IMG/VR virus record: IMGVR_UViG_3300041409_000623
Span: 1-64,000 of that record
DNA from: a virus
Strand: one strand, 5' to 3'
DNA: 64,000 nucleotides
Positions 15,202 to 56,871 of the stretch are shown here, in pieces (position 1 is the first letter of the stretch; each line of letters begins with the position of its first letter). The position numbers and the translations under genes were made by a program. The notes beneath the pieces were generated by a model. That model worked only from the letters and a program-made list of their open reading frames with translations, was not told where the DNA came from and did no database searches.

Positions 15202-16031
15202 TCGAAGGCCTCAGGGAAAGCAGATAATAGACTTCGTTGAGCCGTTCGATTTTTTGACAACTTTTGATAGGTCAAGTCCGTTCCGACCCATCGCCTGCCG
15301 TTATTCTCGGCGACCAGACCGACGGTCCCGCTGCCTAAAAATGGATCAAATACTAAATCACCAATACGGGAACCAGCAAGGATGCACGGCTCGATGAGCG
15401 CCTCGGGCATAGTGGCGAAGTGAGCGCCTGAATATGGTTGTGAGTTGATAGTCCACACAGAACGTTTATTTCGTGTACCTTGGTTGCTCTTTTCTGCAAT
15501 CGCTGCAGTGTCGTAATAATACGTTGATGACTTCGTCAATAAAAAAAGATACTCATGCGACTTGGTTGGCCGATCAGTCACACTCTCTGGCATCGGGTTA
15601 GTCTTCGCCCAGATAATGTCCGACCGAAGATACCATCCTGTCGCTTGGAGAGCGAAGGCAACTCTCCAGGGAACGCCAACTAACTGTTTTGATGTGAGAC
15701 CTGTTGATTGCTCTCGCTCTGGATTAGTCGCATCACATCCACGACCGTAAGTTTTTCCGGCAAGTGTTGATCCGTTCAGGCCATTGCGGTTACCTTTCGA
15801 ACCATACGAGTCGCCGAGGTTGAGCCAGCAAGTTCCGTCATTTCTCAGTACACGCCAGACTTCAGCAAACACGGTCATGATGCTGGCGACATAGGCTTCA
15901 GGTGTCGGCTCAAGACCAATTTGATTACTGTTTCCATAATCACGTAAGCCCCAGTACGGTGGTGACGTCACGCAGCACTGCACGCAAGCATCGCGGAGTG
16001 GTAATAAACGAGCGTCGGCTCGGATGATCAT
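15198..16031 (-). CDS. DNA amino-methyltransferase (N4-cytosine/N6-adenine)
   Basis: 277 residues. Catalytic motif IV TSPPYWG at 22-28 precedes the SAM-binding motif FDPFLGSGTVGLVAENN near 230, the order of the beta class. It transfers a methyl group from SAM to an exocyclic amine. No restriction enzyme gene is adjacent, so it is probably an orphan or protective enzyme. Its codons are more AT-rich than those of its neighbours, suggesting later acquisition. Coupled by ATGA to the fusion polymerase. Confidence 0.9.
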   Translation of the reverse strand: MIIRADARLLPLRDACVQCCVTSPPYWGLRDYGNSNQIGLEPTPEAYVASIMTVFAEVWRVLRNDGTCWLNLGDSYGSKGNRNGLNGSTLAGKTYGRGCDATNPEREQSTGLTSKQLVGVPWRVAFALQATGWYLRSDIIWAKTNPMPESVTDRPTKSHEYLFLLTKSSTYYYDTAAIAEKSNQGTRNKRSVWTINSQPYSGAHFATMPEALIEPCILAGSRIGDLVFDPFLGSGTVGLVAENNGRRWVGTDLTYQKLSKNRTAQRSLLSAFPEAFE

Positions 16032-19000
16032 TTCGCCTCAGCCCACGTTCGGCCAGTCCCACACTCCCAGATGATCGGTACTTTTGTCGGATAACTTTGT
16101 CGATTGAGAATTGTTGAGACCTTTTCCAATGTGTCAGGCTGCGTTGCATCACCGAGCGCGGCATCATGGTTCGTGATCCGCATGACGAAACCGGTCTCTT
16201 TTCGCTCCTTATGAAGCTCCACTAGCTTCATTTTCATCAGGTCGGCACCGCCCCCTTGTAGGACTCGGTTAAGACCGATGTAGGTCTTGTAGTTCGTCGG
16301 AAAGCGCGAGCGGCGTCCGAGCAGCGTCTTCACGTAGCCGCGATGCTGGTACTGACGATGTAGCTCGTCGCCCTTACGACAATACTTATCGCACTCCGGC
16401 TTGGCGAGATGAGACGCACGATCGAGCAGTTGCCCTGCTTCCGGGTGCGCGTTCTTGTAGGCGGCCTCGATCTCATGAATCAAGTTGAGACGTTGATCGT
16501 TCCAGCGCTTTGCAACGCGTATCTCTTCGCCTTCCTTCTCGGTGATGAATCCCATCATCACGGCGAGCTTGATGCTGCGCGCGCCATACTGCGCGGCGAA
16601 GTTGTAGTTCTTCGTGTGTGCGTAGAGCATGTCGGGTTTGTATTGCTGCAGCATCGTTTGCATCTGTCGATGAAACGACATCTTCGGATCATCAACATAC
16701 GCCTGCAACAACTTGGCGTTGCCAGAATAGTGCACCAGCAATCTAAACTCGATCTGCGCGGCGTCGGCTTCGAGATAGTCGCCGCTACCAGGAATAAATA
16801 AGCGTCGCGGAAATAGTGAGCAGAGTCCGCCGCAACTCTTAATTCCTGCCTCACTCGTGTCGTCGCCAAACGCAACATGGTGATTATCGTGATTAGGGAC
16901 TTGCTGGACTAACCCGATACTGAAGCGTCCGCTAACCGTGCCGCCTTCGTCGCTGACCAGTTGATTGATGTCGTAGCGGAGAATGCCGTCGGTGATGTGC
17001 TCAGGATATGCCTTGAAGATCTTGCTGTTCAGCGACGCATACTGCGCCGCGCGCTGACCCTTGCGCACGAGCGGGTGGTTGATCTCGCTCAGTTCCGCTT
17101 CGGCAAATGAGTCGGGCACCTGCAACGCGAGGTGCTCGAGCAGGCGCTTCCAGCCGCTGGCCGTGTGCTCGAAGGCGAACCCTGCTTCTTGTGACACCTC
17201 GTACATGAGGCTCTCATATTTAACGAGATAGTCGCGTTGAAACTGTTCGAGCAGGTCCATGTCGATCGGCGACCCGTTCTTCTCCATCTCGACGACGCAA
17301 GGTATGACGGCGTCTTCTAACTCCTGAACATCGCGGAGTTCTTGTGCATCGATCTGTGGATACATCACATCACGAAGTTTTCCCACCAGTTGCGCTGTGA
17401 AAATTTCACGTGCGGCTACTTCGCTTGCGTGGTAGGTCGCGTGACGCGATTCATCCACACGTGGGACGATCCTGAGTGAAGGCAAGTAGTCTTCAGCAAG
17501 TACATCAATCTTAAAGCGCTTGCGATGATCGTCGAGCAGCGCGGCTGTGTGTTGAATGTCGCTGAACGTGCAGCCTTGCGCCTCTAGGTCGATGCCCCAC
17601 CCACGCGCGTGATGTACATCAAACTTCATCTTTGCGTTGATGATCTTTTTTCCACGAAGTTCACGTTCAGCCCATCGCTTAATCGTCGGCTCGTCGAGAT
17701 TGCCGCCAGCAAAAGCGAATGGCAAGAACCGCGTCATGCGGCCGTCAAGCGTACTCACCGTGACGCCCACCGGCTTCGCGCCACTGGCCCAGTTCAAACC
17801 GTCCGTCGCGAAGTTCAAGATGATCTCGTTGATGCCATCCAGCGACGGCGGTTCCTGCGCCTTCCACGTCGGGTCGGTGCGTGGCTGCTGCATGCCGAGG
17901 AACTGCGCCAGCGATCCGCCACCGTTAGGTGGTGGGTCGCCAGCATTTACTACGACGGCATCCACGCCCGAGGATGCCTTCGGCTCGGGGCTAGGCGGGC
18001 GTTTAACGGCCGAAGTTGTAGATGTGCCCGCTATCGCCTCGGCCGCGAGCTTTGGGTCGCCTTTGACGCAAATAATGACGTTCTGGTGCGTCTTTCCTAA
18101 CTTACGCGATGTTTCAAACTGCTTTGTCACTCGAATCGGCAGGCTACCGACCGCCGTTATCAGAATCGCTTCATTGTAGAGCGACGCGCCTGCTGCCATG
18201 AACGACGCGCAGGTCAGCGGAACGAACCCGCGATACAACCCGGTCTGCTTATCACGATATTCACCGATGACGAAGCAGGCGAATCGGTTCGGCTTCAACC
18301 GCTCCACTGAGCGCCGGATGATCGAGCGATAAAGACCCACGAACTTCTCCCACGTCATCGCCGAGAGATCGCTCGGGTCGTCGCTGTATTGCTCGAGGTC
18401 GCCATAGGGTGGGCAGGAGAAGATAAAGTCAGCCTCGGGTGCGTCCTTCAATTTCTCGTTGCTATCACCGACCACCCAGTTGATCGGAGCGTCCGGACAG
18501 ATCATCTGGCGTTGCGCTTCGTTCGCAGCAATCTGCTCCGGTCGCAGGTCGATACCATGGTATTGGAATCCGAGCAGACCGGCGACGATACCGCGCACCG
18601 AGCCACCTGCAAACGGGTCGACGATCATGCCGCCTGGTGGGCAGAACCATTTGTAGCAGAGTTCAGTGAGTACGGGGTCGAAGATCGAGGTGCCCGAGGA
18701 TGTCTCTTGAAGTTTGAGTGAGACCTCGTCACGACGCGGTGAGCCGGATGCGAAGGTCAGACCGGTCTTTTGCCAGCCGTCTTCCTCTTTGTATTTTTCT
18801 GACGCCGCTGGCGTCATGCGAAAGGCCATATTGTCGCGAACGTCGGTCGGTGAATCGCCTTTTCGATACGCATCATTCGTGACGCGATGCGTCAGACCGC
18901 CGCGCAGGTCTGCCGTCTCTCGAGCCGCCTGCATCTCCGCACGCTTCTCTGGGTCCGGCTCGAGCAGCGTGTCGGACATCTTCAGCAGGTTCTCACCGCG

Positions 19001-19312
19001 ACCGACTTCGCTCTGGATGCCGCAGGCGAGCCACGCACGCTTGCGTTCCTGCCACGGACCCTCACGGGCGTTGAGTACGGTGAAGGGTGGAAACTCGAAT
19101 TTTTCGCGTATCTTTCCGGTGGCGTCTTGCTTGATTTCTTCGCCGAATAGGTCGGTGCCAAGAAGGTGAAAGTCCTGCTTCCTGGCACCGAAGTACTTAC
19201 TGTTCGGCCCACCACCTCCACCAGGCTCTGCCGCCTTCAGCGCGGCCCATTCCTCCTCGGTCATCGACTCGCGGAGTGCAGAGCGGTCGGATTGATTGTC
19301 GAAGTCAGTCAT
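16028..19312 (-). CDS. DNA methyltransferase-DNA polymerase I fusion
   Basis: One uninterrupted 1094-codon frame. Residues about 75-425 are a phage-type DNA methyltransferase: FPPFTVLNAREGPWQERKRAW, SAM motif VDPFAGGSVRGI at 231-242, catalytic SCPPYGDLEQYSDDP at 299-313. Residues 430-480 form a Pro/Ser/Gly-rich linker. Residues about 490-645 resemble the DEDD exonuclease domain, but Exo I reads LNFATDGL, lacking the Asp/Glu pair. Residues about 660-1094 are a family-A polymerase: GGTVSGRFS, motif A YLEADAAQIEFRLL at 846-859, motif B KNYNFAAQYG at 901-910, GYVKTLLGRRSRFP at 992-1005, motif C NHDAAL at 1048. ATGA overlaps join both neighbours. It could methylate newly made DNA at the fork, or the two parts may simply be co-produced. 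Confidence 0.93.
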   Translation of the reverse strand: MTDFDNQSDRSALRESMTEEEWAALKAAEPGGGGGPNSKYFGARKQDFHLLGTDLFGEEIKQDATGKIREKFEFPPFTVLNAREGPWQERKRAWLACGIQSEVGRGENLLKMSDTLLEPDPEKRAEMQAARETADLRGGLTHRVTNDAYRKGDSPTDVRDNMAFRMTPAASEKYKEEDGWQKTGLTFASGSPRRDEVSLKLQETSSGTSIFDPVLTELCYKWFCPPGGMIVDPFAGGSVRGIVAGLLGFQYHGIDLRPEQIAANEAQRQMICPDAPINWVVGDSNEKLKDAPEADFIFSCPPYGDLEQYSDDPSDLSAMTWEKFVGLYRSIIRRSVERLKPNRFACFVIGEYRDKQTGLYRGFVPLTCASFMAAGASLYNEAILITAVGSLPIRVTKQFETSRKLGKTHQNVIICVKGDPKLAAEAIAGTSTTSAVKRPPSPEPKASSGVDAVVVNAGDPPPNGGGSLAQFLGMQQPRTDPTWKAQEPPSLDGINEIILNFATDGLNWASGAKPVGVTVSTLDGRMTRFLPFAFAGGNLDEPTIKRWAERELRGKKIINAKMKFDVHHARGWGIDLEAQGCTFSDIQHTAALLDDHRKRFKIDVLAEDYLPSLRIVPRVDESRHATYHASEVAAREIFTAQLVGKLRDVMYPQIDAQELRDVQELEDAVIPCVVEMEKNGSPIDMDLLEQFQRDYLVKYESLMYEVSQEAGFAFEHTASGWKRLLEHLALQVPDSFAEAELSEINHPLVRKGQRAAQYASLNSKIFKAYPEHITDGILRYDINQLVSDEGGTVSGRFSIGLVQQVPNHDNHHVAFGDDTSEAGIKSCGGLCSLFPRRLFIPGSGDYLEADAAQIEFRLLVHYSGNAKLLQAYVDDPKMSFHRQMQTMLQQYKPDMLYAHTKNYNFAAQYGARSIKLAVMMGFITEKEGEEIRVAKRWNDQRLNLIHEIEAAYKNAHPEAGQLLDRASHLAKPECDKYCRKGDELHRQYQHRGYVKTLLGRRSRFPTNYKTYIGLNRVLQGGGADLMKMKLVELHKERKETGFVMRITNHDAALGDATQPDTLEKVSTILNRQSYPTKVPIIWECGTGRTWAEAK

Positions 19313-49823: not shown

Positions 49824-49878
49824 ACCATGACCAGCATCCACTCGGCAACGCGCCGTGACAACGGAAAAGGTTGATACC

Positions 49879-51477
49879 ATGAGCAAGATACTTACGATGG
49901 CGTCGTCCGGCTATCAGATGAGCGACGCGTCGCTCTGCGGCACGATGCCGTCGTCCGGACTGCCGATCAAGCGCATACCGCGCAAGAAGATTCATTGCAT
50001 CCTGCCGTCATCGCCGTGGCTGGCCGACTCGAAGACGAACGTGCCGCTCGGCGTGCTCTATATCGCTGGACTGCTGAGGGAGCATGGGCATGAAATCGTC
50101 GTCACGTCGATGCTCGACAAAAGATACGAAGGCAACATCCATCTTCCGGACGCCGTTATGGATTCCGATGTCCACATGTTCGGATTCTGTACTCCTCAGT
50201 TTGGAGAGGCTCTTGAGCTGGCCGCATACATCCGAGATCGTGCACCTGAAGCGCTGCTCGTGGCTGGTGGTCCTCACCCTTCGTACGAACCGCGCGAAGT
50301 CAAAGAAGCGGGCAGGCAGGAGAACTACCACTACAAAGGCGCGTTGAACGCGCGTCGCGACTATCGCGCAGCCGACGGCCGCGCGCTCTTCGACACGGTT
50401 ATCGTCATGGAAGGCGAGGTCGCGACGCTGCAGATGTTGACCGACTGGGACGCAGGCAAACTGCAGCCGTATTACTACGGCGACAAGTCCGACGCGATGG
50501 ACCTCGACGCGATTCCGTTCCCGGCGTGGGACCTGCTGCCGCACGACCACATCTACAACGACGGCGTGGCCGTGATGAAGCACAAGTACTTCCCGAATGC
50601 GGCGCACCCGGAGGCGTCGAGCGCCGTGATGTCGCTCATCGGAACGCGCGGGTGCCCATACAAGTGCACCTACTGCTCGACGCCGTGGATCGGGCAGAAG
50701 CCGCGCTATCGCTCGCCGCACAACATCATCGCCGAGATGTCGCAGGTGATGGACAAAGGCGTGCGGATGTTCAAGTTCCAGGACGACACCTACACGCTGC
50801 ACAAGACGAAGCTTCGCGAGCTGGCGACGGCCGTCCGCTCGGCGCTCGGTCCTGACTCGTTCGCGGCGCGCATCCACACGCGCGTCAACACGATGGACGA
50901 CCACGTCGCCGAGTCACTCAAGCTGATGAACACGAAGGTCACGTGCTTCGGCATCGAGAGCGGCGCGCAGAGCGTGCTCGACGCGAACCAGAAGGGCACG
51001 ACCGTCGCGCAGAACACGGCGGCGCTGAAGAAGGCGCGCGAGCACGGGTTCTTCACCATCGCGTTCATGGTCATCGGCATGGCTGGCGAGACGATGGAGA
51101 CGATGAAGCAGACGCAAGACTGGCTGCTGTCGGTCAAGCCGTATCTCGATTCGTGCAACTTAGCCGTCGGCATTCCCTATCCGGGCAGCCGATGGTGGAC
51201 GCACCCGCAGGAGAGCGGCATCGACATCGTCGATTACAACTATGACAACCAGTGGATCGTCGGCTTCTCCGCGCGCGACGAGATCCTCGTGCGTCCGCAC
51301 GGCGCGACTGTCGAGGAGATGTTCAAGATCAAGCGCGAGATGTTCGATTTCCTCGTCTATCACGGATGGGCCAAGGCCGAGTGGGACGAAGACGTGCGCA
51401 TCAAGCAACAGCAGCAAGAGGCGGTCGAGCACGGCGTGCTGACGGCCGCGAGCGGATTGACGTATGCCGGTCATTGA
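49879..51477 (+). CDS. B12-binding-type radical SAM enzyme
   Basis: 532 residues from ATG 49879 (AAAAGG upstream). An N-terminal cobalamin-binding-like Rossmann part is PLGVLYIAGLLREHGHEIVV, followed by VAGGPHPSY. The radical SAM motif CPYKCTYC has Cys259, Cys263 and Cys266. GIESGAQSVLDANQKGTT and FTIAFMVIGMAGETMETM follow. Such enzymes methylate unactivated carbons or rearrange sugars or lipids. A GTG eight codons upstream is an alternative start. Confidence 0.87.
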   Translation: MSKILTMASSGYQMSDASLCGTMPSSGLPIKRIPRKKIHCILPSSPWLADSKTNVPLGVLYIAGLLREHGHEIVVTSMLDKRYEGNIHLPDAVMDSDVHMFGFCTPQFGEALELAAYIRDRAPEALLVAGGPHPSYEPREVKEAGRQENYHYKGALNARRDYRAADGRALFDTVIVMEGEVATLQMLTDWDAGKLQPYYYGDKSDAMDLDAIPFPAWDLLPHDHIYNDGVAVMKHKYFPNAAHPEASSAVMSLIGTRGCPYKCTYCSTPWIGQKPRYRSPHNIIAEMSQVMDKGVRMFKFQDDTYTLHKTKLRELATAVRSALGPDSFAARIHTRVNTMDDHVAESLKLMNTKVTCFGIESGAQSVLDANQKGTTVAQNTAALKKAREHGFFTIAFMVIGMAGETMETMKQTQDWLLSVKPYLDSCNLAVGIPYPGSRWWTHPQESGIDIVDYNYDNQWIVGFSARDEILVRPHGATVEEMFKIKREMFDFLVYHGWAKAEWDEDVRIKQQQQEAVEHGVLTAASGLTYAGH

Positions 51478-51643
51478 TCCGCGCTATCAACTGTCGGAAC
51501 TCCTGCGCAGCTGCTCGATCTGCTACGAGGAGTATTGCGGGAACGTCGGGACTATCACGGACGATGAAGGCAACCTGACGGAGGAGCAGATTCCGATCGT
51601 GCTCGAATACATGAACCGCTTTCATCTGAACCATGTTCACTAA
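51464..51643 (+). CDS. 59-residue hypothetical protein
   Basis: ATG at 51464 overlaps the radical SAM end. MPVIDPRYQLSELLRSCSIC then YEEYCGNVGTITDDEGNLTE: possible Cys-based metal site and a helical end (PIVLEYMNRFHLNHVH). Supported by tight packing. Overlaps the next start by 11 bases. Confidence 0.55.
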   Translation: MPVIDPRYQLSELLRSCSICYEEYCGNVGTITDDEGNLTEEQIPIVLEYMNRFHLNHVH

Positions 51644-52310
51644 GGTCTCGGTGCTCGTGCCTACGCGCGGGCGCGTGGCGCGCTTGCGGACGCTGCTGGA
51701 CTCGTACGATGCGACGACGTTCGGCGAGCTGTCCGAGCTTGTCTTTCGCATCGACGAAGACGACGAGGCGACGCGCGAGTTTTTTCAGTTCAGCAGACAT
51801 AGAGTCATCGTCGGTCCGCGCGGCAAAGGTTACGGAGACATGCCGACGTTCTTCAACGAGCTGGCGCGCTCCTCGATGGGCGACGTGTTGCTTTGCGGCA
51901 ACGATGACATGGTGTTCAAGACGGTGGGATGGGCGTCGTTGATCCTGCAAGCGGCGAATCAGTATCCCGACGGCTTGTTCAACCTCGGCGTCAGCACGTT
52001 CAACGAGGATCATTACCCGTTCTCGACCGTGTCGAAGCACGTCGTCGACAAACTCGGGTTCCTCTGGGACCCACGCATCTTCTGGGGCGACATCTACCTG
52101 CGCGACGTGATGGGTTGCCTCGGACGACTCGAAAAACTTCCCGGCGTCGTCATCGATCACGACTGGGCTGGAAACGACCCGGATCGCACGTTCGAGGAGT
52201 CCGACAAAGACATCGTGTGTCGCGTGCCGGACTATTGGACGGTGGTGCACGCGCAGGCCGTCGCCGAGGCTGTCGAGAAACTGAAGGAGCTGCATCATGT
52301 CGGGCGTTAG
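51633..52310 (+). CDS. GT-A type glycosyltransferase-like protein
   Basis: 225 residues. SVLVPTRGRVARLRTLLDSY start, FRIDEDDEAT, then VLLCGNDDMVFKTVGWASLI with an aspartate pair in the DxD position. FWGDIYLRDVMGCLGRLEKL follows. GT2-like fold, shorter than GT2 enzymes of about 300 residues. Confidence 0.7.
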   Translation: MFTKVSVLVPTRGRVARLRTLLDSYDATTFGELSELVFRIDEDDEATREFFQFSRHRVIVGPRGKGYGDMPTFFNELARSSMGDVLLCGNDDMVFKTVGWASLILQAANQYPDGLFNLGVSTFNEDHYPFSTVSKHVVDKLGFLWDPRIFWGDIYLRDVMGCLGRLEKLPGVVIDHDWAGNDPDRTFEESDKDIVCRVPDYWTVVHAQAVAEAVEKLKELHHVGR

Positions 52311-52962
52311 CGTCTGCGTTCCGGTGCTCAAACGGTACGATCTTCTTCGCGACATGCTGGAGTCGCTGCGAGCGAGTACGGTGCAACCGGAGCGCGTGCT
52401 CATCATCGACAACGGACGAGATCTTAAACGAGTGACCAAGGCGATTCAGGCAGCGCCTGTAGAAGTGCTCGTCGAAATGCCATATGAGCCGATGGGACTC
52501 GCGGAGTCGTGGAACTGGTTCATCGAGCAGACGAGCGACGCGCGCTTGATCACGAACGACGACATCACGTTCGCTCCGAACTCGCTCGAAGCGTTCTTGA
52601 ACACCGAGGGAGACCTCATCGAGCACGTCGGCATCAACATGTGCTCCTGCTTCCTGCTGCGCGACAGTTGCGTCGCGAAGGTCGGCGTCTTCGACGAGAC
52701 CATATCGCCCGGCTACGCGTATTTCGAGGATTGCGACTACGCCGAACGCATCGCGCTCGTCGGTGCCGTTCGAATGGCGATTGATTGCGGCGTGAAGCAC
52801 GTCGGCAGCGCGACGCCGAGCATGTATTCACCCTCCGAGCACGCCGAGCACAATCGCAAGTTCCTCATCGCGCAGGAGAACTTCATCACCAAGTGGGGAC
52901 GCATGCCTGGCGGACTGCAGGCGACGCTCGGGCACCCTATCGAGATGGTGAGGCAGCGGTGA
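52297..52962 (+). CDS. Glycosyltransferase family 2-like
   Basis: 221 residues. VSVCVPVLKRYDLLRDMLES, RVLIIDNGRDL, then LITNDDITFAPNSLEAFLNT with the acidic pair, and FDETISPGYAYFEDCDYAER as the acceptor-side acidic loop. A convincing GT2 outline. Overlaps the previous gene by 14 bases. Confidence 0.8.
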   Translation: MSGVSVCVPVLKRYDLLRDMLESLRASTVQPERVLIIDNGRDLKRVTKAIQAAPVEVLVEMPYEPMGLAESWNWFIEQTSDARLITNDDITFAPNSLEAFLNTEGDLIEHVGINMCSCFLLRDSCVAKVGVFDETISPGYAYFEDCDYAERIALVGAVRMAIDCGVKHVGSATPSMYSPSEHAEHNRKFLIAQENFITKWGRMPGGLQATLGHPIEMVRQR

Positions 52963-53513
52963 ACGTGAGCTACATCGTTCCGACGATCGGTCGACCGACG
53001 CTTCCGCGCACGATCGCGTCCATCGAGACGCGTCCCGGCGACGAGATCTTGCTCGTCGGCGACCCATCGTTGCTCTTCCACGTTCGTCCGCTCCTCGACC
53101 AGCGGCCAGAGATGCATTTTTTGAGCTGCGCACCCGGCAACGACTGGGGCAGCACCGAGCGCAACTACGTGACGCCTTTCGCGAAGGGCGACTATCTGTC
53201 GTTCATGGACGACGACGACGCCTACGTGCCGGGCACGCGTGAGCTGTTCGAGTCGGTCATGAACGGATGCCCGTCGATCTTCCGCATGTCGTATCACTAC
53301 ATCGGCGGCTTGACGCTCTGGCGGGAGCCCGAGATTCGGTGCGGGAACGTCGGCACGCCGATGGTCTTCGTGCCGAACGTGCCCGAGCGCATCGGCTTGT
53401 GGGGTCCGAACGTCGGCGGCGACTGCGATTACATGTTTAGGATGAAGTGGGAGCCGCACGAGATTGCGTGGCGACCCGAAGTCATCGCCTTGATTCGCCC
53501 GGAGGTTGCGTGA
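52959..53513 (+). CDS. Glycosyltransferase family 2-like, short
   Basis: 184 residues, GTG start with GTGA overlap. VSYIVPTIGRPTLPRTIASI, then KGDYLSFMDDDDAYVPGTRE, the expected DDD sugar-nucleotide motif, and WGPNVGGDCDYMFRMKWEPH. Compact GT2 catalytic core. Confidence 0.78.
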   Translation: MNVSYIVPTIGRPTLPRTIASIETRPGDEILLVGDPSLLFHVRPLLDQRPEMHFLSCAPGNDWGSTERNYVTPFAKGDYLSFMDDDDAYVPGTRELFESVMNGCPSIFRMSYHYIGGLTLWREPEIRCGNVGTPMVFVPNVPERIGLWGPNVGGDCDYMFRMKWEPHEIAWRPEVIALIRPEVA

Positions 53514-54772
53514 AGAAGCGCGTGCTGTTCGTCGGCGACGCGGTCGTGAGCACTGGGTTCGCGAAGGCGACGCACGCCTATTGCGCGGGTCTGCTGGCGG
53601 CAGGATGCGACGTGCACGTTCTCGGCATGCACCACACCGGCGACCCGAACGAATACGACAAGCTCTATCCGATCTATACGTGCTGGCCAGGCGGCGACCC
53701 GTTCGGCATCGGGCGCGTCGCGAACATCGTTAAGCAAGTGCAGCCGGACCTCATCGTCATTCAGCAGGATCCGTGGAACTTCCCGCAATACCTCGAACGG
53801 TTGGCCGATTATCCGGACATCCCAGTCGTCGGCGTCGTCGCGGTGGACGGCAAGAACTGCCAAGGCGACAAGCTCGGGCCATCCGACGTGCATCCTGGTC
53901 TGTCGCACGCGATCTTCTGGACGCAGTTCGGCGCTGAAGAAGCGCGCGTTGGCGGCTGGAAGGGTTCGTCGTCGGTCGTTCCGCTCGGCGTCGATCTCGA
54001 CGTCTATCATCCGATGGACCGCGTCGCGGTTCGCAGCAATGCGATAGGTCCGGTGCTGCGCGCCTACGGGTTCGACGACGACGCGTTCATCGTCGGCTGC
54101 ATCGGGCGCAATCAGCCGCGCAAGCGATTGGACTTGACGATTCAGTATTTCGCGGAGTGGGTGCAGTACAAGAACGTCAAGAACGCGGTGCTCTGGATGC
54201 AGTGCGCGCCGACCGGTGACCAGGCGTTCGACATCAAGATGCTCGCGAAGTACTTCGGCGTGCAAGGCCGCGTGCTCCTGCCGGACGTGAACCCCCGCTA
54301 TGGCGTCGACGAAGGCACGATGGCCAAGGTCTACAACTTCATCGACGTCTATCTCTCGACGACGGTCGGTGAAGGGTGGGGCCTTCCCGCGATGGAGGCG
54401 ATGGCCTGCGGCACGCCGTGCGTCGTGCCGAAGTGGTCGGCCTACGCCGAATGGGCCGTCGATGCAGCGTGGCTCGCCGAGTGCATCTCTATCGCCGTCG
54501 CGCCGCAGATCAACACGGTCGGCGGCGTAGTCGGACCTGAGGTCAAGGAGGCGCTGAATCGCTTGTATCTTGAGAAGCATTCGTGGAAAGCGCTGTCCGA
54601 CGCAGGCGTCAAGCTCGCGTCAAAGCCGGAGCATCGGTGGGAGCACGTCGGCACCGAGTTCGCGAAGATCGTCGCTGCGGTTCTCGGCGTCGACATGCTC
54701 GACGTGACGACGCACGCGGACGCCCTTCCACGATTCATTATGAGCGATCGAGAGGCGACGCGTGCCGTTTAA
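53510..54772 (+). CDS. Glycosyltransferase family 4-like
   Basis: 420 residues, GTG start with GTGA overlap. N-terminal RVLFVGDAVVSTGFAKATHA, a linker VVPLGVDLDVYHP, then FIVGCIGRNQPRKRLDLTIQ and VYLSTTVGEGWGLPAMEAMA with the E-x7-E type motif and CGTPCVVP. Typical GT-B retaining enzyme. The last of the cassette. Its end overlaps the next gene. Confidence 0.87.
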   Translation: MKKRVLFVGDAVVSTGFAKATHAYCAGLLAAGCDVHVLGMHHTGDPNEYDKLYPIYTCWPGGDPFGIGRVANIVKQVQPDLIVIQQDPWNFPQYLERLADYPDIPVVGVVAVDGKNCQGDKLGPSDVHPGLSHAIFWTQFGAEEARVGGWKGSSSVVPLGVDLDVYHPMDRVAVRSNAIGPVLRAYGFDDDAFIVGCIGRNQPRKRLDLTIQYFAEWVQYKNVKNAVLWMQCAPTGDQAFDIKMLAKYFGVQGRVLLPDVNPRYGVDEGTMAKVYNFIDVYLSTTVGEGWGLPAMEAMACGTPCVVPKWSAYAEWAVDAAWLAECISIAVAPQINTVGGVVGPEVKEALNRLYLEKHSWKALSDAGVKLASKPEHRWEHVGTEFAKIVAAVLGVDMLDVTTHADALPRFIMSDREATRAV

Positions 54773-55599: not shown

Positions 55600-56043
55600 A
55601 TGTCAGTGAACGCGCTTTCTTCGCATCACACTGTTGTTGCGGTGCAGCTCATACCTGGAGGCGTGTGGACTGACATCGCTGAGCAGGGCGACATCACCAT
55701 TCCAGGACGTTCGCGCACGGAGAGCGACTCCTCGACGCAGCTGGAGAATATCGACAGCTACGTCGTGTCCGGCCTGATGCGGCGCAGTCCGCTCAAGGTC
55801 GCGCTGAACTTCATCCCATCGAACGCGACGCAGGACCACCTGACCGGCCTGCAGAAGCTGTTCAACGCGAACACGATGACCGGGTGGAAGTCGACCTACC
55901 CGGACGGCACCTACATCATTTCGAGCGGGCAGATCCAGGCCATCGGAGACATCTCAGCGCCCGTCGACGGCAAGTTGTCGGTGGACTACACGATCCGCTT
56001 CAGCGGCGTGTATAACTACAACGGCACGACCCTCGGCGCGTAG
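55600..56043 (+). CDS. Major tail tube protein
   Basis: 147 residues. NALSSHHTVVAVQLIPGGVW, QGDITIPGRSRTESDSSTQL, and SPLKVALNFIPSNATQDHLT, then a beta-rich end. Consistent with siphovirus tail tube proteins in both fold outline and place just before the chaperone and tape-measure genes. Strong ribosome site. Confidence 0.75.
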   Translation: MSVNALSSHHTVVAVQLIPGGVWTDIAEQGDITIPGRSRTESDSSTQLENIDSYVVSGLMRRSPLKVALNFIPSNATQDHLTGLQKLFNANTMTGWKSTYPDGTYIISSGQIQAIGDISAPVDGKLSVDYTIRFSGVYNYNGTTLGA

Positions 56044-56048
56044 AACTG

Positions 56049-56130
56049 CCCCACGCAGCGTTGCACCTGACTTTGCCGGTTTCCCAGGTGCAACGTACGA
56101 TGAAACCGGCGAAATTCAGCTTGCGTGGGG
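56049..56130 (+). ncRNA. Structured RNA element with nested pseudoknot
   Basis: Three perfectly complementary helices. Outer P1 is 56049-56057 with 56122-56130 (9 bp). P2 is 56060-56069 with 56085-56094 (10 bp). P3 is 56075-56083 with 56102-56110 (9 bp) and pairs the P2 loop with downstream sequence, forming an H-type pseudoknot inside P1. The 3' strand of P1 ends in GGGG next to AGAG, so it overlaps the ribosome site of the tail chaperone gene (ATG 56141). No T-run, so it is not a simple terminator. Confidence 0.7.
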
Positions 56131-56140
56131 AGAGTGAGTC

Positions 56141-56545
56141 ATGGACGAACAGAGCAACGGCACAAAGAAATTCCTGTCGATCGATGAAGTCAACACGGCC
56201 AAAGACGAGGAGTACTTCGAGATCGAAGTGTGGGGCGGCATCTTCCTCGCTGGCAGTCTGACGGCCGACGACTTCATCGAGTGGCAGGAAGCGAACGAAG
56301 GACCAGCCAAGCGCACCGCCGGGTTGCGATTGATCGTCGACAGCATGTGCGGATCGTTGTCCGGTTGCCCTGCATGCAGCGGAACCGACGGAGCGTTGCA
56401 CAAGGGTCTGCACCCGCGCACCGGCAACGACAAGCACCTCGAGATCTACAAGAAGAAATCGGTGGCGCAGACCGAGAAGGTCGTCGGCGCGATCGTCAAG
56501 CTGAACGGCCTGAAGACGAAAGGCTCCGAGACAAAAAACGATTAG
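56141..56545 (+). CDS. Tail assembly chaperone, short (G-like) form
   Basis: 134 residues. KFLSIDEVNTAKDEEYFEIE, then ADDFIEWQEANEGPAKRTAG and a CPAC motif, ending KGSETKND at TAG. Its last codons carry the slippery A-AAA-AAC (56533-56539). Position between tail tube and tape measure is the G/T chaperone locus of siphophages. It guides tube and tape measure assembly and is not in the virion in known systems. Confidence 0.8.
   Translation: MDEQSNGTKKFLSIDEVNTAKDEEYFEIEVWGGIFLAGSLTADDFIEWQEANEGPAKRTAGLRLIVDSMCGSLSGCPACSGTDGALHKGLHPRTGNDKHLEIYKKKSVAQTEKVVGAIVKLNGLKTKGSETKND
56533..56539 (+). other. Programmed -1 frameshift site
   Basis: A-AAA-AAC in the zero frame (ACA AAA AAC GAT TAG) two codons before the stop. 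A -1 slip continues as CGA TTA GCG into the long downstream frame. Confidence 0.85.
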
Positions 56546-56871
56546 CGCGCAACTCGCATCTACGGTTCGCGTATCGACTTGCGCGCGAAGTCGGACACAC
56601 GGTGAACGTGCGCCAGATGCTGCGAGGCATGACGGCGCGCGACCTGCTTTGGTGGGAGGCGTACTATGCGCTCGAACCTTCGCTCGACCAGCGCATCGAC
56701 CTGCTCGTCGCGTCGGTGCGAGAGATGATTCACAACGTGGCGGTGCCGCAGAAGCATCGCAAGAGCGTCGAGCATTTCCTGCTGAAGTTCGAGTCGAAGC
56801 AGGCGAGCGTGCCGGTGACGTCGTGGCAGCACCAGAAGGCGATGATGCTTCTCGGGCTGAATCAAGGTTGA
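56539..56871 (+). CDS. Tail assembly chaperone, frameshift extension (GT-like)
   Basis: Open -1 frame reached only by slippage, with no convincing start of its own. RLARNSHLRFAYRLAREVGH, then GMTARDLLWWEAYYALEPSL and a helical end. Ends 4 bases before the tape measure ATG. The fused product is about 243 residues, in the lambda G-T pattern. Confidence 0.8.
   Translation, partial: RLARNSHLRFAYRLAREVGHTVNVRQMLRGMTARDLLWWEAYYALEPSLDQRIDLLVASVREMIHNVAVPQKHRKSVEHFLLKFESKQASVPVTSWQHQKAMMLLGLNQG

Follow-up and report, generated by a model that had tools for sequence, protein, structure and literature searches.

In the analyzed window, a 64,000-nucleotide stretch taken from a virus record of 67.5 kb, the gap (56044-56140) between the genes for the major tail tube protein and the tail assembly chaperone contains a cis-acting intercistronic RNA element belonging to a previously unlisted family. 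Sequence comparisons indicate that it folds as an H-type pseudoknot, very likely with a major-groove triple helix in which loop L1 (CUYU) lies on the GARA strand of helix P3. As to function, we regard it as evenly balanced whether an outer helix, P1, occludes the Shine-Dalgarno (SD) sequence and so limits chaperone expression, with ribosomes terminating on the tail tube gene relieving the block.

Both flanking genes are encoded on the plus strand. The product of the upstream gene (55600..56043; 147 aa, stop codon TAG) matches the PHROG 158 major tail protein (E 2e-7) and, just under the family cut-off, Pfam Phage_TTP_12 (E 8e-5). The downstream 134 aa ORF (56141..56545, ATG at 56141) occupies a gpG-like position and has no PHROG or Pfam match of its own. 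A canonical slippery sequence, A_AAA_AAC, is found in the chaperone zero frame at 56533-56539, and the -1 frame after the gene (56539-56868) matches tail proteins of PHROG 337/39, making a gpG/gpGT-type frameshift at the chaperone gene end likely. Elsewhere in the window, the stretch immediately before the neck and tail genes (49855-54772) encodes a radical-SAM/B12-like protein and carries several glycosyltransferase-like genes, and a single 1094-aa ORF on the minus strand (16028-19312) shows ParB-like nuclease, DNA methyltransferase and DNA polymerase matches in turn, an unusual fusion.

Three perfect helices were identified at 56049-56130 from the sequence and an inverted-repeat scan, all on the plus strand. 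P1 (9 bp) pairs CCCCACGCA (56049..56057) with TGCGTGGGG (56122..56130), P2 (11 bp) pairs CGTTGCACCTG (56059..56069) with CAGGTGCAACG (56085..56095) and P3 (9 bp) pairs GCCGGTTTC, also given as GCCGGUUUC (56075..56083), with GAAACCGGC (56102..56110), whose purine tract GAAA spans 56102-56105. An earlier note on this DNA had described helices of 9, 10 and 9 bp; all three exist, with P2 being one pair longer than claimed. The strands follow each other in the order P1, P2, P3, P2', P3', P1', meaning that P2 and P3 cross as in an H-type pseudoknot and are both enclosed by P1, the nested arrangement the note had proposed. L1 (CUUU, 56071..56074) precedes the P3 5' arm, and loop L3 (UACGAU, 56096..56101), which crosses P2, begins with UA in many relatives. 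A conserved 5' box, CUGCCCCACGCAG, spans 56046..56058. The proposed overlap of P1 with the chaperone ribosome site is likewise present, its 3' arm holding the SD and the best anti-SD duplex (GGGGAG, 56127..56132) overlapping this arm. A longer, bulged P3 (TTTGCCGGTTTC/GAAACCGGCGAA) was rejected since relatives lack it and the same U's fit a third strand.

Apart from P2 and P3, no H-type pair in the window reaches 17 bp over a span of up to 70 nt. When the full 64 kb was Markov-shuffled 60 times (3.84 Mb in total), one H-type pair, of 20 bp, arose, in a count that did not yet require an enclosing P1. The minimum free energy of the element corresponds to a z-score of -2.7, a measure that gives the pseudoknot no credit. 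Chance formation, already judged very unlikely in the earlier note, is removed as an explanation because the element recurs with covariation in relatives.

Relatives were identified by searching IMG/VR with tail tube and chaperone alignments, followed by DNA patterns and a covariance model. This resulted in 27 distinct elements of the same architecture, each the single copy in its genome and all located just after a tail tube gene on uncultured phage contigs. All family sequences stem from assembled metagenomes, and the covariance-model E-values are rough. The nearest contig (L001) is identical across the element, and L018 shares the architecture with hardly any sequence match (14 bits). Searching 22 whole records returned a match in 15 and a convincing second copy in none; additional rows were reverse-strand images or weak scores, and minus-strand matches reflect the near self-complementarity of the element. 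Covariance-model matches in L237, L250, L261, L219 and L196 were taken as chance hairpins since both tail genes are missing there, and pattern matches in L161 and L162 were also rejected as members.

Terminase comparison gave distant links only, many of them to actinobacterial phages. By the patterns used, the family is absent from about 85,000 prokaryote genomes; of the 60 matches from a genome-contig pattern scan, few retained a P3-like complement even of 5-7 nt, and the P1/P2 arrangement was missing from all of these few. Among 50,697 phage records, neither the tail tube nor the chaperone has a close relative and the element DNA is unmatched; a lone weak tail match was obtained for L063. 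The window and 20 loci showed no match above the curated gathering cut-offs of Rfam 15, and no description of the element was found in the open-access literature. Identity with RAGATH-10 was rejected (18.4 bits against a gathering score of 41.2, E 0.27, inner pairs broken), as was a weak match to mir-35. With its defined length of 82 nt, the family is a potential addition to Rfam.

The earlier note had set a lack of compensatory changes in relatives as its refuting test; such changes were found, with P2 and P3 both covarying. In alignment A3, 91.8% of the P1 and P3 paired cells are complementary compared with 32-47% when the alignment is slid by 1-3 columns. Changes affecting both partners are seen at seven pairs, of which six belong to P3 (6/9 P3 pairs), and none of 500 shuffles gave P3 covariation as good, which lies far above the slid controls. 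For P2, partners came from a best-pairing search with permutation serving as the control: when the 5' side of each element was paired with the 3' side of every other element, the mean score was 16.1, versus 25.6 for cognate sides, and 0 of 20,000 permutations reached the observed value. P2 and P3 are thus crossing helices that are both maintained by compensatory changes, as expected of an H-type pseudoknot. P1 is near-constant in most members, and where it departs it does so in step: GCUCCACGC/GCGUGGAGC in L051, CUCCCACAG/CUGUGGGAG in L078, UCCACACC/GGUGUGGA in L018 and CCCAUGCAG/CUGCAUGGG in L222. The last of these was found without using the 5' box and serves as an out-of-sample check of P1 since it was fetched by a P3-only pattern. 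Overall, the structure is well supported, and its function is a matter of inference.

The L1 of an H-type pseudoknot lies in the major groove of stem 2, oriented in parallel with the 3' strand of that stem, a geometry that L1 and P3 of the element fit. The four bases before P3 are CUUU, CUCU, CCUU or UCUU, and the matching P3 purine strand reads GAAA, GAGA, GGAA or AGAA. In the window, L1 is accordingly proposed as a Hoogsteen third strand in the P3 major groove, covarying with 56102-56105. Across 26 elements, 84 of 104 positions form parallel U.A or C.G triples, compared with 62.5 +/- 4.0 by permutation. None of 100,000 permutations scored as high and an antiparallel control showed no enrichment. 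A full 4/4 match is seen in 17 elements, against 5.3 expected. Mapped onto the tail tube tree, L1 and the P3 purine strand jointly switch their third position at least five times and the third-position label clusters no more than by chance, so that shared tail tube ancestry fails to explain the match; the element may have its own history, separate from that of the tail tube. Four elements (L018, L047, L056 and L039) do not fit the register, the last of them fitting after a shift (CUUUCU/GAAAGA). It should be noted that the pattern was noticed and tested in the same sequences, a fresh set being the proper confirmation; the later-fetched L222 fits (CUCU/GAGA), its fetching pattern having fixed GARA on the purine side.

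The position of the element is strongly constrained. The distance from the tail tube stop to the 5' box is 1-7 nt in 23 of the 25 elements checked, placing the stop within the ribosome footprint of the helix. In the two exceptions (L042 and L074) other sequence intervenes between stop codon and element, making direct coupling impossible there. A second structured stretch is seen between tail tube stop and pseudoknot in three contigs (L042:3618-3705, L074:3709-3831 and L176:2944-3070). Of 21 elements lying directly before a start codon, 19 have their best anti-SD site inside the 3' arm of P1, although part of this arm would stay conserved as an SD regardless; the exceptions, L045 and L071, carry a strong SD (AAGGAG) just beyond P1. 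P1 is gone and the knot retained in L046, L058/L064 and L073, in which a small gene is located between element and chaperone. Judging from these patterns, the element seems to have two parts that can be separated, the knot going with the end of the tail tube gene and P1 with the chaperone SD. L074/L176 retain P1 despite the chaperone start lying tens of nt further on. The knot score is also significant after the tail tube in L005, L054 and L055. The pseudoknots following the tail tube stop in these contigs (L054:753-830, L055:2445-2520 and L005:389-440) are H-type, different-looking and without P1; a small gene (MLTIKH.../MMTVKH...), present in only some of these phages, follows them.

From the position of the element and the SD overlap we infer a mechanism in which P1 would hide the chaperone SD, leading to poor initiation by free ribosomes. 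A ribosome terminating at the tail tube stop would sit over the 5' box together with the initial C's of P1, thereby freeing the SD, and chaperone translation would be low and tied to tail tube translation. The rigid knot behind the stop codon could act as a barrier holding P1 in place and may also shield the 3' end of the abundant tail tube mRNA. The net outcome would be many tubes and few chaperones. Control of the tube to chaperone ratio was among the roles suggested in the earlier note and is the best supported of them, as a candidate role. More tentatively, and with less than even confidence, we propose a new class of phage RNA, in which a triple-helix pseudoknot behind the tail tube stop would be at once a mechanical 3'-end barrier for the tail tube mRNA and the centre of an SD switch that ribosomes operate and that meters the chaperone; it would amount to a dedicated RNA device for virion stoichiometry, in the form of a cassette exchangeable between phages.

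Exchange at this site can be seen in L167 and L168, which are 95% identical as far as 6 nt beyond where the tail tube coding match stops and 87% identical after the gap, with the gap sequences themselves (L167:2951-3121 and L168:2951-3029) being unrelated. Judged by this comparison, the gap is a natural swap of an intergenic cassette. At least six changes are needed to explain element presence on the tail tube tree. Some relatives without the family element carry a strong hairpin instead (L050, z -6.0; L061, z -6.2; L023, z -4.0), those of L050 and L061 being simple hairpins at the tail tube-chaperone site. The gap is short and unstructured in L002, L004, L024 and L037, indicating that the element is not essential for the tail tube-chaperone gene order.

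The weightiest rival to SD occlusion, doubtful in our judgment, is that the element is solely an mRNA-end stabilizer of the selective RNA processing and stabilization kind: the knot would block 3'-to-5' exonucleases so that the tail tube segment outlives the rest of the late transcript, and the overlap between P1 and SD would result from tight space. A triple helix is expected to resist unfolding, the element abuts the tail tube stop, the knot persists where P1 is lost and plain strong hairpins are found at the same place in L050, L061 and L191, all of which would suit such a role. Published reports also describe 3' stem-loops that govern the stoichiometry of Clostridium operons (PMC4423207, PMC8219983) and operons reshaped by programmed decay (PMC5927463). 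However, stabilization alone leaves unexplained why P1 tracks the SD strand via compensatory changes and why the 5' box is strictly conserved.

It is unlikely that the knot serves as a sensor, with a phage protein (tube subunit or chaperone) or small molecule binding it and shifting the balance between P1 and an alternative hairpin, P0, as in translational autoregulation or an H-type riboswitch. A knot with a triple and an SD helix does resemble translational riboswitches and autoregulated pseudoknots, and CUGC/GCAG of the 5' box could form P0 (-3.0 kcal/mol), which would exclude P1. P0 is suggestive only: its CUG/CAG pairs are found in 23/23 aligned elements, but with a single compensatory change. 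Moreover, a ligand pocket needs an invariant loop position, none of which is seen among the elements, and simple hairpins stand in for the element in relatives.

It is quite improbable that the element is a self-cleaving ribozyme, a phage RNA acting in trans or a linker for recombination between modules. The compact, knotted fold, the patchy distribution and the L167/L168 exchange would be compatible with these, but the same two genes always adjoin the element, its loops are unconserved and no Rfam ribozyme match was obtained, RAGATH-10 being the best weak one. With no invariant unpaired bases either, the earlier suggestion of RNA cleavage is without support. A recoding signal causing frameshift or readthrough at the tail tube stop to give an extended tube protein is hardly credible and was rejected: a pseudoknot placed shortly after a shift site or stop codon is a classic stimulator of recoding, but here the extensions in all three frames run from 1 to more than 160 residues without shared sequence or conserved reading frame, the spacing between stop and element takes every phase and no slippery heptamer was seen at the tail tube gene end.

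Apart from chaperone frameshifting, little is known of how tailed phages control virion stoichiometry through structured RNA. The natural P1-less variants and natural replacements make the role of each part testable in simple reporters.

Several known systems share features with the element. RAGATH-10 (RF03147) aligns end to end, with a similar length of about 82 nt and an outer helix ending in GGAGA, but its inner helices mismatch and the score falls below gathering. With telomerase RNA and the SAM-II riboswitch the element shares a pyrimidine L1 that is parallel to the stem 2 purine strand, here with putative U.A-U and C+.G-C triples; it differs from both in its genes, its outer SD helix and the lack of a known ligand, and no homology is implied. 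The pseudoknots of T4 gene 32 and the ribosomal alpha-operon (S4) bind the encoded protein, and the element would resemble them as an mRNA pseudoknot acting on translation initiation. In repY/repZ of IncI/IncB plasmids, a pseudoknot activates translation and is itself regulated by an antisense RNA. The likeness here is one of architecture rather than sequence kinship, namely a pseudoknot and an SD-covering helix between two genes, with opening by upstream-terminating ribosomes as the presumed common step. Finally, selective RNA processing and stabilization operons, which are reported to use plain stem-loops (PMC4423207, PMC8219983), are similar in placing a stable structure right after an abundantly needed gene, with a role in stoichiometry; they differ from the element, which is a covarying pseudoknot that includes the next SD.
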